A stretch of DNA of 47,851 nucleotides from Campylobacteraceae bacterium (GTDB lineage Bacteria > Campylobacterota > Campylobacteria > Campylobacterales > Sulfurovaceae). A model generated the notes under the pieces. It ran no database searches. It worked only from the letters and a program-made list of their open reading frames with translations, and was not told the DNA's origin. Of the stretch, positions 38,330 through 42,711 are shown piece after piece (position 1 is the first letter of the stretch; each line of letters opens with the position of its first letter). The DNA lies in the NCBI GenBank assembly GCA_027080995.1, contig JALWNT010000053.1:1-47851 (forward strand). The letters run 5' to 3'. The translations under genes and the position numbers were made by a program.

Positions 38330-38851
38330 AAACGCGATCATCTTCTCTTTATCGCCAGCGTCGTCGCTGTCTTTCTCCTCCTGATCGCCGGAGCGTGGAG
38401 CAGCCCGACTTTTACCGAAAAGCGGAGCTACGTCGAGGCGATCGTGATGTTCGGGGCGCTGCTTTTCGTCTTTTCGGTCGTGGTGATCGTCGCGGCGATG
38501 GGCTTTCGATCCTTTGCGCTTTTTATGGCCCTCTTCATCGCGATGGCGGTCTCTCTCTACGGCGTGGAGGCGGGAGTCATCGTCATCGTCGCCACCTACC
38601 TCGTCTGGGGGCTGGTCTTTGCGATCCAGCTGCTGCTGGTGCATCACCGCGTCGAGGGGGCGATCCGCTGGTTCCGCGAGCGCTACACCTTCAAGACGTT
38701 CTCCCTGGAGTACAAAGTCTTCTATCCGATGGTCTGGGCGTTCTACTTCTTTTTCGAATATCTCCCCAATCTGGTAACCAAGGAGCATCTCCTCGACTTC
38801 GACCCCCGGAAAGTCTACGAGCAGATGCGCGGATACCTTCGTCCGAGATGA
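38327..38851 (+). CDS. Small hypothetical integral membrane protein
   Basis: The 174-residue protein is not recognised. ATG 38327 has GGAG 8 nt upstream, within an inverted repeat. There are four to five hydrophobic helices: HLLFIASVVAVFLLLIAGAW, AIVMFGALLFVFSVVVIVAAMG, FALFMALFIAMAVSLYGVEAG, VIVIVATYLVWGLVFAIQLLL, and possibly one near YPMVWAFYFFFEYLPN. The C-terminus is a charged segment of about 20 residues. Frames beginning further upstream would read through heptamer arrays and are rejected. A possible small lipoprotein gene follows in the same direction. Confidence 0.7.
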   Translation: MKRDHLLFIASVVAVFLLLIAGAWSSPTFTEKRSYVEAIVMFGALLFVFSVVVIVAAMGFRSFALFMALFIAMAVSLYGVEAGVIVIVATYLVWGLVFAIQLLLVHHRVEGAIRWFRERYTFKTFSLEYKVFYPMVWAFYFFFEYLPNLVTKEHLLDFDPRKVYEQMRGYLRPR

Positions 38852-38882
38852 GAACGATTATCCCAAAAAAACGGAGTGAATG

Positions 38883-39083
38883 ATGCGTCCTGAAAAAAGA
38901 GTCTTCCTCTGCGGTATTTTCTTTATTGCCGTGCTTTTCCTCGGCGGCTGTACCTCCATCGTGACCGCCCCCATTGAAGTCGCCGGTTCCGTGGCAAGTG
39001 CCGGAATCAGTATGGTCGGAGCGGCCGGGGGAGCCGTCGTCGATATCGCGACGGGTGGAGGAGACGATGAGAAAGATGATTAG
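38883..39083 (+). CDS. Small lipoprotein of unknown function
   Basis: The 66-residue product has a lipoprotein signal peptide: basic MRPEKR, a hydrophobic core and lipobox FLGGC (Cys at about 22). The mature part is Ala/Gly/Val-rich (IEVAGSVASAGISMVGAAGGAVVDIATG) and ends in acidic residues. Of two adjacent ATGs the second (38883) is better spaced from GGAG. It resembles other short lipoproteins of Gram-negative bacteria, but no family can be named with certainty. Confidence 0.68.
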   Translation: MRPEKRVFLCGIFFIAVLFLGGCTSIVTAPIEVAGSVASAGISMVGAAGGAVVDIATGGGDDEKDD

Positions 39084-39108
39084 GTGATAGTGCTCGTTGC
39101 GTATCTGC

Positions 39109-39114
39109 TATAAT
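39109..39114 (+). promoter_or_regulatory. -10 element (TATAAT) upstream of the GluRS-like gene
   Basis: GCTATAATCCC contains a perfect TATAAT 81 bp before the ATG of the GluRS-like gene. No clear -35. Confidence 0.45.
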
Positions 39115-39194
39115 CCCTTTTTATCCGCGTGGCCGGCACCTTCTGTGCAAGGCATACAAACGCTATCAATTCTGAAAAAGAGTACGGAGGTATG

Positions 39195-40502
39195 ATGTTA
39201 CGTTTCGTCTACTCTCCCCGTTTCGATCTGAATGTCGCCGATCTACGTCTTGCTTTGATCAACTATCTTCTCTCCCGCCAACGGGAGGAAGATTTTCTTC
39301 TCGTAGTCGACGATCGAAGCGAGATGACGGATCGGGAGGCCACTCGTGCGGCAGAGGCGAAGGAGCTTCTCGACAAATTCGTTCTCCACTCCGAGCGACA
39401 ACTCTACCGTAGTGAAGCACGCAACCGCTATCAACAATTGGCTCTGCATCTGTTGGAGAGCGGCAAAGCCTTTCTCTGCACCTGCGAAGAGAAGTCGGAG
39501 CATTCAGAAGAAAGCGACGAAGAAGATCCCCGGCGATACGGCGGACGCTGCCTTCGGCTCTCTTCCGAAGAGCTACGAAAGATCCGGGATGAAAATCTCC
39601 CTTTTACGATTCGCATCCGCAAACCGGCCGAGACGATCGTCTGGCGGGATCTTCTCCAAGGAGAGTTTCACGCCGCCCCCGAAGAGGTGGATCATTTCGT
39701 CCTCCGGCTCTCCGACGGCAGCCCATCACGCACCTTCGCCGACGCCGTCGACGAGATGAGCAACGGTATCTCTCTCGTGGTCGAAGAGGAGCGGCACCTA
39801 GGAGAGGTCCCCCGACAGATTCATCTGCGTCGCTCTTTGGGATACGAAGAGGAGATCACCTACGCCCACATTCCCCCTCTTCTGGATGAAACAGGCAGAA
39901 AGTTTTCCCCGCACGGAGCTCCGAGCGTCAAAGCTCTTCTTGCGGAAGGTTTCCTTCCCGATGCCCTCATCAACTATCTTCTTCGACTGGGCAACGAGAG
40001 CCTCGAAGGGGTCTTCACCCTCCCCGAAGCGGTAGAGTCCTTCGAGCTTGGAGGTCTCTCTCCCCTCCCCGTTCGTTTCGATCTTGACGAGTTACGTGCT
40101 CTGAATCGTGAGCATCTGCGACGAATGGACGATCGAACTCTCTCTCTGATCTTCGGATTTGCCGACGCTTCGATCGGTCGACTGGCCAAGCTCTATCTCG
40201 AAGAGGCTCCTACGATCCGAGGGTTGGAAGAGAAGATTCGAAAGATTTTCTCCCCGAAAAATTGTAAAGGTCTGCAGGGCGAGTCGTTGCGGCTCCTCAG
40301 CGAGGCGATCCTCTCCGCCCCCTATTTCCCGGATTTCGACGCTTTCGAAAACGATCTCGGCTCACGAACCGGTCTACAGAGAGAAACGCTTCGCTCGTCC
40401 CTCTACCGCCTTCTCACCGGATCCGATGAGGGACCGGCCCTACCCGAACTCTACACCCATATCAAATCCTACATTACGGAGGTCGCACGATGTCAGCACT
40501 GA
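39195..40502 (+). CDS. Degenerate GluRS paralogue (GltX2-like; HIGH and KMSKS signatures replaced)
   Basis: The 435-residue protein aligns end to end with class I glutamyl-tRNA synthetases of the Campylobacterota GltX2 type: LRLALINYLLSR, a CTC...YGGRC zinc-type cluster (95-119), PRQIHLRRSLGYEEEITYAHIPP, and GFADASIGRLAKLYLEEA in the anticodon-binding part. The catalytic signatures are changed. The expected TGxxHIGN reads RFDLNVAD (9-16), RIEDTD reads VVDDRS (37-42), RGEDH is replaced by VEEER (196-200) and KMSKR reads KFSPH (236-240). The frame is intact, so the gene appears maintained. It may bind tRNA or Glu-AMP without aminoacylating, or have lost synthetase function altogether. The start is the second ATG after GGAGG. 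It overlaps yggT by 13 bp. Confidence 0.85.
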   Translation: MLRFVYSPRFDLNVADLRLALINYLLSRQREEDFLLVVDDRSEMTDREATRAAEAKELLDKFVLHSERQLYRSEARNRYQQLALHLLESGKAFLCTCEEKSEHSEESDEEDPRRYGGRCLRLSSEELRKIRDENLPFTIRIRKPAETIVWRDLLQGEFHAAPEEVDHFVLRLSDGSPSRTFADAVDEMSNGISLVVEEERHLGEVPRQIHLRRSLGYEEEITYAHIPPLLDETGRKFSPHGAPSVKALLAEGFLPDALINYLLRLGNESLEGVFTLPEAVESFELGGLSPLPVRFDLDELRALNREHLRRMDDRTLSLIFGFADASIGRLAKLYLEEAPTIRGLEEKIRKIFSPKNCKGLQGESLRLLSEAILSAPYFPDFDAFENDLGSRTGLQRETLRSSLYRLLTGSDEGPALPELYTHIKSYITEVARCQH

Positions 40503-40777
40503 TCTACGCTCTGGTCCAACTGATTCATACCGTCATCAATCTCTACATTTGGATGATCATCATCGCCGCTGTTTTGAGCTTTGTCCAGCCCAATCCGTCC
40601 AATCCGACGGTCCGTTCCATGATCTTCGGTCTCTACCGACTCACCGAGCCGGCCTTTGCCTGGGTCCGACGCAAAATGCCTTTCGTCGTCATGGGAGGTA
40701 TCGATCTCTCTCCCATCGTCATTCTGTTGGGATTGCAGTTTATCGATACCTTCTTGATACGGCTCGTTTTCGGATGA
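40490..40777 (+). CDS. YggT-family membrane protein
   Basis: The 95-residue protein has two membrane segments (IYALVQLIHTVINLYIWMII and LSPIVILLGLQFIDTFLI) around the conserved QPNPSNPTVRSMIFGLYRLTEPAFAWVRR region with R residues near the second helix. YggT proteins are small inner-membrane proteins linked in other bacteria with cell division or osmotic responses, but the molecular role is not firmly known. The ATG overlaps the GluRS-like gene by 13 bp, with GGAGG 7 nt upstream. The lytic transglycosylase starts 4 bp before its end. Confidence 0.85.
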   Translation: MSALIYALVQLIHTVINLYIWMIIIAAVLSFVQPNPSNPTVRSMIFGLYRLTEPAFAWVRRKMPFVVMGGIDLSPIVILLGLQFIDTFLIRLVFG

Positions 40778-42318
40778 GAAGACTCCGGGCGCTTTTTGGC
40801 CTGCTTCTGCTGATTCCCCTCGGTGCCGAAACTTTCAGTTACACCTGGATCCACTCCCTCCCCAAAGGGGTGGAGAAGGATTACTACATCTGGCGCTATC
40901 TGCGTCAAAAAAGTACGAGCAAAGCCCAAGCCCGACGCATCATCCGCGAAGCCTCCGCGCTCAACCCCAGCCTCAAAAAAGCCTACCGCAAAAAAACGGG
41001 CCTGCGTCCGCCCGCTCCGCCCCGACGAACCCTCCGGCGACTCAGCCCGGCACAAAAGAGAGAACTAGCCCGCAAAAAGGCGCTGGTCCGAAAAATCCTC
41101 GCATCCCCGAATCCCCGGGTCGCCTGGCTCAAACTCGATCCGAAAATGCAGCTCTTTGTCTTCAAACATGCCGGAACGAAAGGACGCAAGCAACTCGACT
41201 ACGCGATCAGCGAAACACAGTGGCAACGCCTCAGCCGCTACCGGGATGCCAATCTGATGATCCATTATGTCCGTCGCGACCGCCTTCCCGGACTCTCTCG
41301 GATCCTTCGTTTCAAGCCGGCCAAAGCCAACGCTCTACGCTACGACTATCTGATGCGTATGGGTTTCGAAGCCCTCGATCGGGGGCAAACGGATCTGGCC
41401 GAATACGATTTCGCCCGGGCCGTCTCCAAAGCTTCCAGCCGCGAATTGGCCGATCGAGCACTCTTTTGGGCGTGGAAAGCCGAAGACGACCGCGACTATC
41501 TCAAAAAGTTGGTCAAGAGCTACGACATCAATCTCTACACCCTGGCGGCCAGGGATGCCTTGAAGCTCCCCTACGATTTGGGGATCACCCCCGATCTCCC
41601 CCCGGGAAAAGTCCCCGGATTCGATATCCGAAACCCCATCCAATGGCACCGACTCAAAGCGAAGATCTTCAATCCTCATACCGATTTGAATACATTGGCG
41701 AGGAAATTTCACCACGCACAAACCGTCGGACATTGGACCTATATCAAGACAAAAGCCGGCAAAGATATTCCCCAGTACTTTCCGATGCCCTACCGCGATT
41801 ATTTGGCCAAATTTCCCGTCAAACGTCAGGCGATCCTCTACGCCATCGCCCGCCAGGAGAGCCGCTTTATCCCCGCTTCCGTCTCCGGCTCTTTCGCGCT
41901 GGGGATGATGCAGATCATGCCCTTTTTGGTGGACCATCTTCGAAAAGTCCGTCACGAACGGATCGACTACGACGATCTCTTCGATCCGATCACCGCCCTC
42001 AAATACGCCAACACCCATTTGGATTATCTGACCAAATGGCTTCATCACCCTCTCTTTGTCGCCTACGCCTACAATGCCGGTATCGGATACACCAAACGGC
42101 TGATCCGCCGCAAAGATCTCTTCGAAAACAATCAAAAATACGATCCGTGGATCAGTCTGGAACGTGTCGCCAACTACCAGGCCAACGACTACGGCAAAAA
42201 GGTCCTAGCCAACTACGTCATTTACATGAACAAACTGGGACATCCACTACGGATCACTGATCTGCTCTCCGTCGTTCACCGACCCGAATTCACCGACGAG
42301 TTTCGGAAAAAACAGTGA
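40774..42318 (+). CDS. Lytic murein transglycosylase (SLT domain)
   Basis: The 514-residue protein has an N-terminal hydrophobic segment (RALFGLLLLIPLGAETFSY), likely a signal peptide or anchor. A helical, super-helix-like region follows (about 40-340). The C-terminal SLT domain has the catalytic Glu in AIARQESRFIPASVSGSFALGMMQIMP near 360-380, and VAYAYNAGIGYTKRLI. It would cleave peptidoglycan to anhydro-muropeptides in the periplasm. It resembles the Slt70-type soluble lytic transglycosylases. The ATG overlaps the yggT stop by 4 bp, and the following small gene overlaps its stop by 4 bp. Confidence 0.88.
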   Translation: MRRLRALFGLLLLIPLGAETFSYTWIHSLPKGVEKDYYIWRYLRQKSTSKAQARRIIREASALNPSLKKAYRKKTGLRPPAPPRRTLRRLSPAQKRELARKKALVRKILASPNPRVAWLKLDPKMQLFVFKHAGTKGRKQLDYAISETQWQRLSRYRDANLMIHYVRRDRLPGLSRILRFKPAKANALRYDYLMRMGFEALDRGQTDLAEYDFARAVSKASSRELADRALFWAWKAEDDRDYLKKLVKSYDINLYTLAARDALKLPYDLGITPDLPPGKVPGFDIRNPIQWHRLKAKIFNPHTDLNTLARKFHHAQTVGHWTYIKTKAGKDIPQYFPMPYRDYLAKFPVKRQAILYAIARQESRFIPASVSGSFALGMMQIMPFLVDHLRKVRHERIDYDDLFDPITALKYANTHLDYLTKWLHHPLFVAYAYNAGIGYTKRLIRRKDLFENNQKYDPWISLERVANYQANDYGKKVLANYVIYMNKLGHPLRITDLLSVVHRPEFTDEFRKKQ

Positions 42319-42647
42319 TCCGTTCCGTCAAAGACAAAACTCTCTCCCGGGCAATCGCCCTCGCCGTCAATACCAAAATAAGGAAATTCGGAACCATGCT
42401 CGACTTCAAACTCGACAGCCGCACGAAAACGATCGAACTCGAAATCATGCTCAAGGGGGAGACAGAGCCTCTCTTCGTCAAAGTTCAGCGCTATGAAATC
42501 CTCGAAGAGAACGGCCGATATTTCCTTCTGGCCGAACGAATCGTAACCTCCAGAGAGTGGATCAACGTCGTTGCCGAGAGCTATCTTCAGGGACAGCGCA
42601 TCGAGATAGCTCCACGCTACGCCCGGCTTCTTCAACTTGTTGTGTAA
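42315..42647 (+). CDS. Conserved small protein of unknown function
   Basis: The 110-residue product starts with GTG at 42315, overlapping the transglycosylase stop by 4 bp. It is not recognised. It is soluble, beta-rich by pattern (MLDFKLDSRTKTIELEIMLKGE, LFVKVQRYEILEENGRYFLL) and lacks a signal peptide. A start at a downstream Met (MLDFKL) is less likely given the overlap. Translational coupling suggests a role connected to the cell-wall genes upstream. Its stop is followed within 6 bp by a copy of the dispersed repeat. Confidence 0.65.
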   Translation: MIRSVKDKTLSRAIALAVNTKIRKFGTMLDFKLDSRTKTIELEIMLKGETEPLFVKVQRYEILEENGRYFLLAERIVTSREWINVVAESYLQGQRIEIAPRYARLLQLVV

Positions 42648-42652
42648 ATCCA

Positions 42653-42696
42653 AAATTTGCATTAGCCGGCACGCCATCTGCATCGATCATTCCGGA
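42653..42696. repeat. Dispersed intergenic repeat, partial copy 3 (inverted)
   Basis: On the minus strand this reads GATCGATGCAGAT...CTAATGCAAATTTTGG. It matches the right part of the copy at 47438-47480 with few changes. Confidence 0.65.
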
Positions 42697-42711
42697 AAAA
42701 ACTTCACCGTT

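Follow-up and report, generated by a model that had tools for sequence, protein, structure and literature searches.

In organisms that lack glutaminyl-tRNA synthetase (GlnRS), a second glutamyl-tRNA synthetase, GluRS2 (GltX2), puts glutamate on tRNA-Gln, and GatCAB then amidates it. The synthetase fold also serves other purposes: GluQRS (YadB) is a GluRS-derived, glutamyl-adenylating protein that has no anticodon domain and does not charge a tRNA acceptor end, while catalytically dead paralogues of the HisZ type reuse a synthetase fold without aminoacylation (duplication review: PMC9437257). For Helicobacter pylori, a passage of PMC9976931, citing Salazar 2003 and Chang and Hendrickson 2009, describes GluRS2 as mischarging only tRNA-Gln. 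In the accessible portion of PMC3927822, Dasgupta and Basu 2014 report six epsilonproteobacteria that possess both GluRS2 and a YqeY-tailed GlnRS, record a HIGN-type motif for epsilon GluRS2, make no mention of motif loss, and guess that GlnRS is non-functional in these species since GluRS2 is obligatory. The same portion mentions an inactive GluRS2 of Thermotoga maritima, which charges neither tRNA and reportedly originated by duplication of GluRS1. Beyond PMC3927822, no inactive Campylobacterota GluRS2, nor its erosion, was found in the literature available without subscription.

The gene analysed here lies in a window of 47,851 nucleotides (the whole stretch of DNA analysed), from a genus whose named relatives are Nitratifractor. 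It occupies exactly positions 39195-40502 of the plus strand, opens with ATG, and encodes 435 amino acids plus stop with zero internal stops, as the first-pass annotation had read it. A putative ribosome-binding site, GGAGG (39186-39190, +), stands 4 nt before the ATG at 39195, and a small lipoprotein-like ORF (38883-39083) lies directly upstream. The fold, previously called recognisable, was recovered in two ways: Pfam tRNA-synt_1c (PF00749), the class I Glu/Gln catalytic fold, matches residues 3-300 with E=1.2e-32, and an AlphaFold2 model (pLDDT 90.4, pTM 0.86) resembles bacterial GluRS structures in the PDB over its full length by Foldseek, for example 1j09 (TM 0.83/0.77). The zinc-type cluster noted earlier is present as Cys95, Cys97 and Cys119 (39477-39551, +), conserved at 0.93, 0.91 and 0.89 in eroded copies. 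The best match is to the GluRS2 group of Campylobacterales, and the gltX2-yggT-slt position is conserved; the protein, termed ex-GluRS here, is the Campylobacterales GltX2/GluRS2 orthologue in its gltX2-yggT-slt operon. It is orthologous by sequence and fold to the tRNA-Gln-specific, misacylating GluRS2 of H. pylori.

It differs from that enzyme in that all four catalytic signatures are replaced and its host has GlnRS. Alignment with intact orthologues, which carry the HIGN-type motif, shows NVAD in place of HIGN (the HIGH motif; residues 13-16, 39231-39242, +), VVDDRS in place of RIEDTD (residues 37-42, 39303-39320, +), and KFSPH, aligned as KFSP-H, in place of KMSKR (KMSKRD with the next residue; residues 236-240, 39900-39914, +), the last in a loop that is deleted in many relatives. 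These three replacements agree with the first-pass annotation; RGEDH is likewise lost, but the aligned residues are EEERH (residues 197-201, 39783-39797, +), so the earlier reading, VEEER, was off by one. Chance and a sequencing artefact are ruled out by a congener (G002) at 88% identity, whose motifs are replaced in almost the same way. On the curated GltX equivalog model of NCBIfam (TIGR00464), ex-GluRS scores 212.8 bits against a cut-off of 289.95, whereas intact orthologues reach 436-455 bits, and the HIGH and KMSKS ATP-binding motifs expected of GltX are NVAD and KFSP-H instead. Nor is it a GluQRS: TIGR03838 gives 102 bits against a cut-off of 276.7, the C-terminal domain is kept, and the catalytic motifs are missing. 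Judged from the motifs, glutamylation of tRNA-Gln by ex-GluRS would be absent, and we take the protein neither to aminoacylate nor to bind ATP.

The window genome contains three Glu/Gln synthetase genes. Besides ex-GluRS, there is GluRS1 (contig C84), the canonical GltX for which a genome search had been proposed, with all motifs intact (HIGG/RIEDTD/GDDH/KLSKR), and a GlnRS of 763 residues (contig C46) that ends in a YqeY/GatB-like tail and whose HIGH and VLSKR motifs are intact. Each of the 13 genomes in the genus yielded GltX2, whole or, where the assembly is least complete, as a fragment. No genome of the genus has an AsnRS above the cut-off, which leaves tRNA-Asn dependent on GatCAB. Its gene gatB is present in all genomes checked, including those without GltX2 (the matches of G239 and G457 contain one in-frame TAG each); GatCAB as a cause of GltX2 retention was dismissed, since gatB is equally present where GltX2 is lost. 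GlnRS itself is patchy, scoring above the cut-off in 117 of 175 genomes of the family and 136 of 399 in the order. Its presence in the window genome, the likely cause of the replaced motifs, and the recurrence of erosion across the order go beyond what had been noted at first.

GluRS2 was extracted from 172 genomes of the order and scored at 15 catalytic positions, copies with at least 13 counting as intact-like. Among GlnRS-negative genomes, 36 of 40 copies keep at least 13 of the 15 residues and 34 of 40 keep all of them; among GlnRS-positive genomes, only 14 of 132 copies keep at least 13, and more than half are gapped at the KMSKS loop. Seven GlnRS-positive copies retain all 15 residues, which fits recent gains of GlnRS. 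Eroded copies occur in four GlnRS-negative genomes with assemblies 72-93% complete, from which GlnRS may simply be missing. On a tree of GluRS2 computed with the motif columns removed, the GlnRS state changes 23 times, and in 14 phylogenetically independent pairs erosion runs with GlnRS in 8.3 and against it in 0 (median p 0.008). Taking erosion as irreversible, one counts 36 all-eroded clades on the best tree, each a separate erosion; this count is sensitive to weak branches and to the cut at 13. Both motif states occur within a single genus in several cases, such as g1, g4, g8, g9, g11, g14 and g18. Frames are open in all 172 copies examined, some of them shortened. Many independent losses of the active site have occurred in the order, and they track the presence of GlnRS. 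A diverged but active GluRS of an unknown type was also considered, and was ruled out by the KMSKS-loop deletions in many relatives together with the one-way link to GlnRS.

Several genomes depart from the common arrangement. GlnRS lies in three separate pieces on contig C28 of G141, whose GluRS2 is half eroded (11 of 15), and the GlnRS match on contig C171 of G417 contains 15 stops; both are possible pseudogenes. In G187 and G204 (f14) and in G190 and G207 (f17), neither GluRS2 nor GlnRS was detected and GatB is present, so a non-discriminating type is predicted for the single GluRS of these genomes; an additional match of GluQRS size occurs in f14. In the near-complete, GlnRS-positive genomes G182 and G240 (f9), the GluRS2 profile found no GluRS, not even GluRS1, which may reflect an assembly gap or a limit of the search.

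Despite the loss of its catalytic residues, ex-GluRS is not in free decay and evolves under purifying selection, as expected of a synthetase-derived pseudoenzyme. Against the 88% identical congener, dN/dS ranges from 0.17 (NG86) to 0.31 (YN00), and across 34 eroded pairs it is 0.194 [0.171-0.217], far from the value near 1 that the first-pass annotation had named as the sign of decay. In the same congener pair, GluRS1 stands at about 0.02, yggT at 0.08 and slt at 0.11. A pseudogene or an assembly error is ruled out by dN/dS well below 1 and by open frames throughout the family. Silent-site divergence is even along the gene and suppressed only near its two ends, which places the constraint on the protein; an overlapping RNA element or a promoter within the ORF was rejected on the same grounds, and no plus-strand promoter-like site was found within 38700-42700.

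The constraint is unevenly distributed. In eroded copies, HIGH, RIED, RGEDH, KMSKS and the C-terminal LKGK element are relaxed 4- to 15-fold, and the CP domain as well as residues 207-233 and 266-295 about 1.5- to 2.2-fold. Residues 48-90, which form helices (39336-39464, +), show dN/dS of 0.105 in eroded and 0.118 in intact copies (ratio 0.89 [0.59-1.53]), so that no relaxation is detectable after the loss of catalysis. The same applies to residues 296-338 (LRALNREHLRRMDD...FGFADASIGRLAKLYLEE; 40080-40208, +), with a ratio of 1.13 [0.81-1.75], and to residues 361-392, with a ratio of 1.10. Divergence-matched pairs give a similar regional pattern, with ratios of 1.06 for residues 48-90 and 1.52 [0.80-4.73] for residues 296-338, the intervals being wide because only 6 intact pairs qualify.

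Downstream, the first 13 nt of yggT (40490-40777, +) overlap the gltX2 frame. The GGAGG that serves yggT as ribosome-binding site (40478-40482, +) falls within the 3' end of gltX2, in codons for ..TEV.., an arrangement that bears out the tight coupling reported at first. A slt-type lytic transglycosylase gene, named from its sequence and conserved synteny, follows in the same operon (40774-42318, +) with an ATGA overlap. Throughout most of the order gltX2 is followed by yggT and slt. The spacing to yggT lies between -15 and +6 nt in almost every copy, and the yggT ribosome-binding site is present at 115 of 121 eroded loci and at 47 of the 49 that are intact or near-intact. With this site and the start codon within its last codons, translation of gltX2 would feed yggT. 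G313 (L181) has lost the anticodon domain by deletion but retains the final 12 codons, which carry the ribosome-binding site of yggT and the ATGA overlap, so part of gltX2 is held by yggT. In G209 (L179), whose anticodon domain is also deleted, a free-standing yggT site and start lie about 47 nt downstream. GltX2 is missing from 10 of 73 GlnRS-positive genomes outside the family, most of which keep yggT; f9 and a number of f6 and f20 genomes have lost the gene and kept yggT. Coupling therefore does not force retention, and some genomes do without both the protein and the coupling. At many loci, glnS adjoins gltX2: it is divergent and about 100-220 bp from the eroded gene in f1-g9 and f16, and in most f20 genomes it precedes gltX2 on the same strand at a distance of 2-5 bp (L136, L143 and L172 are examples from these three groups), as if GlnRS had repeatedly landed at, or stayed by, the gltX2 locus.

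This anatomy would suit a protein that is useless in itself, whose frame stays open since translation of yggT needs ribosomes to finish the upstream ORF, and which need only fold and stay soluble while it shrinks in-frame and is finally lost. The near-universal spacing and the internal ribosome-binding site agree with such a relic, as do the reduction of the G313 C-terminal domain to its 3' codons, the shortened forms of 278-396 amino acids, the survival of yggT where f9 and parts of both f6 and f20 have lost gltX2, and an acidic, solubility-like shift: mean net charge falls from -4.3 in intact to -16.2 in eroded copies, with -19 in ex-GluRS. However, a useless protein should relax everywhere, and the constraint on residues 48-90, 296-338 and 361-392 is not detectably below that of active enzymes. 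GltX2 is also retained across deep divergence, in 63 of 73 GlnRS-positive genomes outside the family and in nearly all within it, and the survival of yggT without gltX2 shows that the coupling is no strict trap. A translated relic is a serious candidate that we consider somewhat improbable, whereas a catalysis-independent role of the protein, suggested by the pattern of constraint, has close to an even chance; a demand to fold and not aggregate could account for part of the constraint.

What the eroded copies have lost bears on the nature of such a role. The first-pass annotation had favoured tRNA or amino-acid binding, and a catalysis-free regulator, for instance one that chaperones tRNA-Gln for GlnRS or acts as a scaffold of GatCAB, could draw on the adjoining glnS of many genomes, on retained GatCAB, and on residues 311-380, where 86% of the Lys/Arg conserved in intact copies survive. 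Only 42-49% survive in the CP/acceptor-side and stem-contact parts, though, and G198, the KMSKS residues and K395, G396, K397 and F400 of the C-terminal element are gone. Also lost are the residues at positions 179 and 197, which align with Tyr and Arg of the glutamate site (presumably Tyr187 and Arg205 of the Thermus enzyme). Together with the acidic shift, these losses argue against tRNA binding or amino-acid sensing, GatB occurs just as regularly in genomes that have lost gltX2, and we regard this role as unlikely; ex-GluRS probably does not bind tRNA. Regulation as such, also raised in the first-pass annotation, may be a role of the protein. A new active site on the old fold is very improbable: the fold and zinc site are kept, but eroded lineages share a new residue at two positions only (D298E and K397E), and their active-site positions diverge in every direction. 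With the hydrophobic core and the zinc-type cysteines surviving, the pattern of losses points to a folded body that makes contact with something other than these substrates.

The reading that we favour, and hold to be highly probable, is that GluRS2 became redundant through GlnRS, was disarmed many times, and was retained both as a folded pseudoenzyme and as a leader to which yggT translation is coupled. Since the window genome has a YqeY-tailed GlnRS, glutamylation of tRNA-Gln by GluRS2 is redundant there. GlnRS would have been gained first, after which the ATP, glutamate and tRNA acceptor and anticodon elements of the redundant GluRS2 would have eroded. Two reasons for keeping the frame are proposed. 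Its last codons hold the yggT ribosome-binding site and overlapping start, through which it would influence yggT, and the folded protein is under purifying selection outside its substrate sites, presumably on account of a role of its own. GluRS2 most likely had a second, catalysis-independent task, which would probably be binding to a protein partner. A more specific proposal, to which we give slightly less than even weight, is that dozens of independent GlnRS takeovers have exposed a hidden GluRS2 function that needs no ATP, glutamate or tRNA; the eroded copies would then be natural separation-of-function mutants, and the unrelaxed residues 48-90 and 296-338 an interaction surface.

The locus shares with the species of PMC3927822, as that source presents them, the coexistence of GluRS2 and GlnRS; here GlnRS is intact, and GluRS2 is the disarmed partner. 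The motif data oppose the guess of 2014: where GlnRS is present, GluRS2 loses its active site, which indicates that GlnRS works. The T. maritima protein, as described in the same text, is likewise a second, non-charging GluRS (non-charging by inference in the present case), whereas here the loss follows GlnRS gain in a separate GluRS2 lineage. Non-charging synthetase-derived proteins, such as those of the HisZ type, are usually single old paralogues; ex-GluRS is an orthologue at its own original locus, repeatedly disarmed and usually kept. Lying below the curated GltX cut-off, it could still easily be annotated from homology as a glutamate-tRNA ligase, a name by which metabolic models would be misled. 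In the set of eroded GluRS2 genes, the change from the indirect to the direct route to Gln-tRNA-Gln is replicated many times, and through these copies the question of whether GluRS2 does more than charging becomes directly testable.
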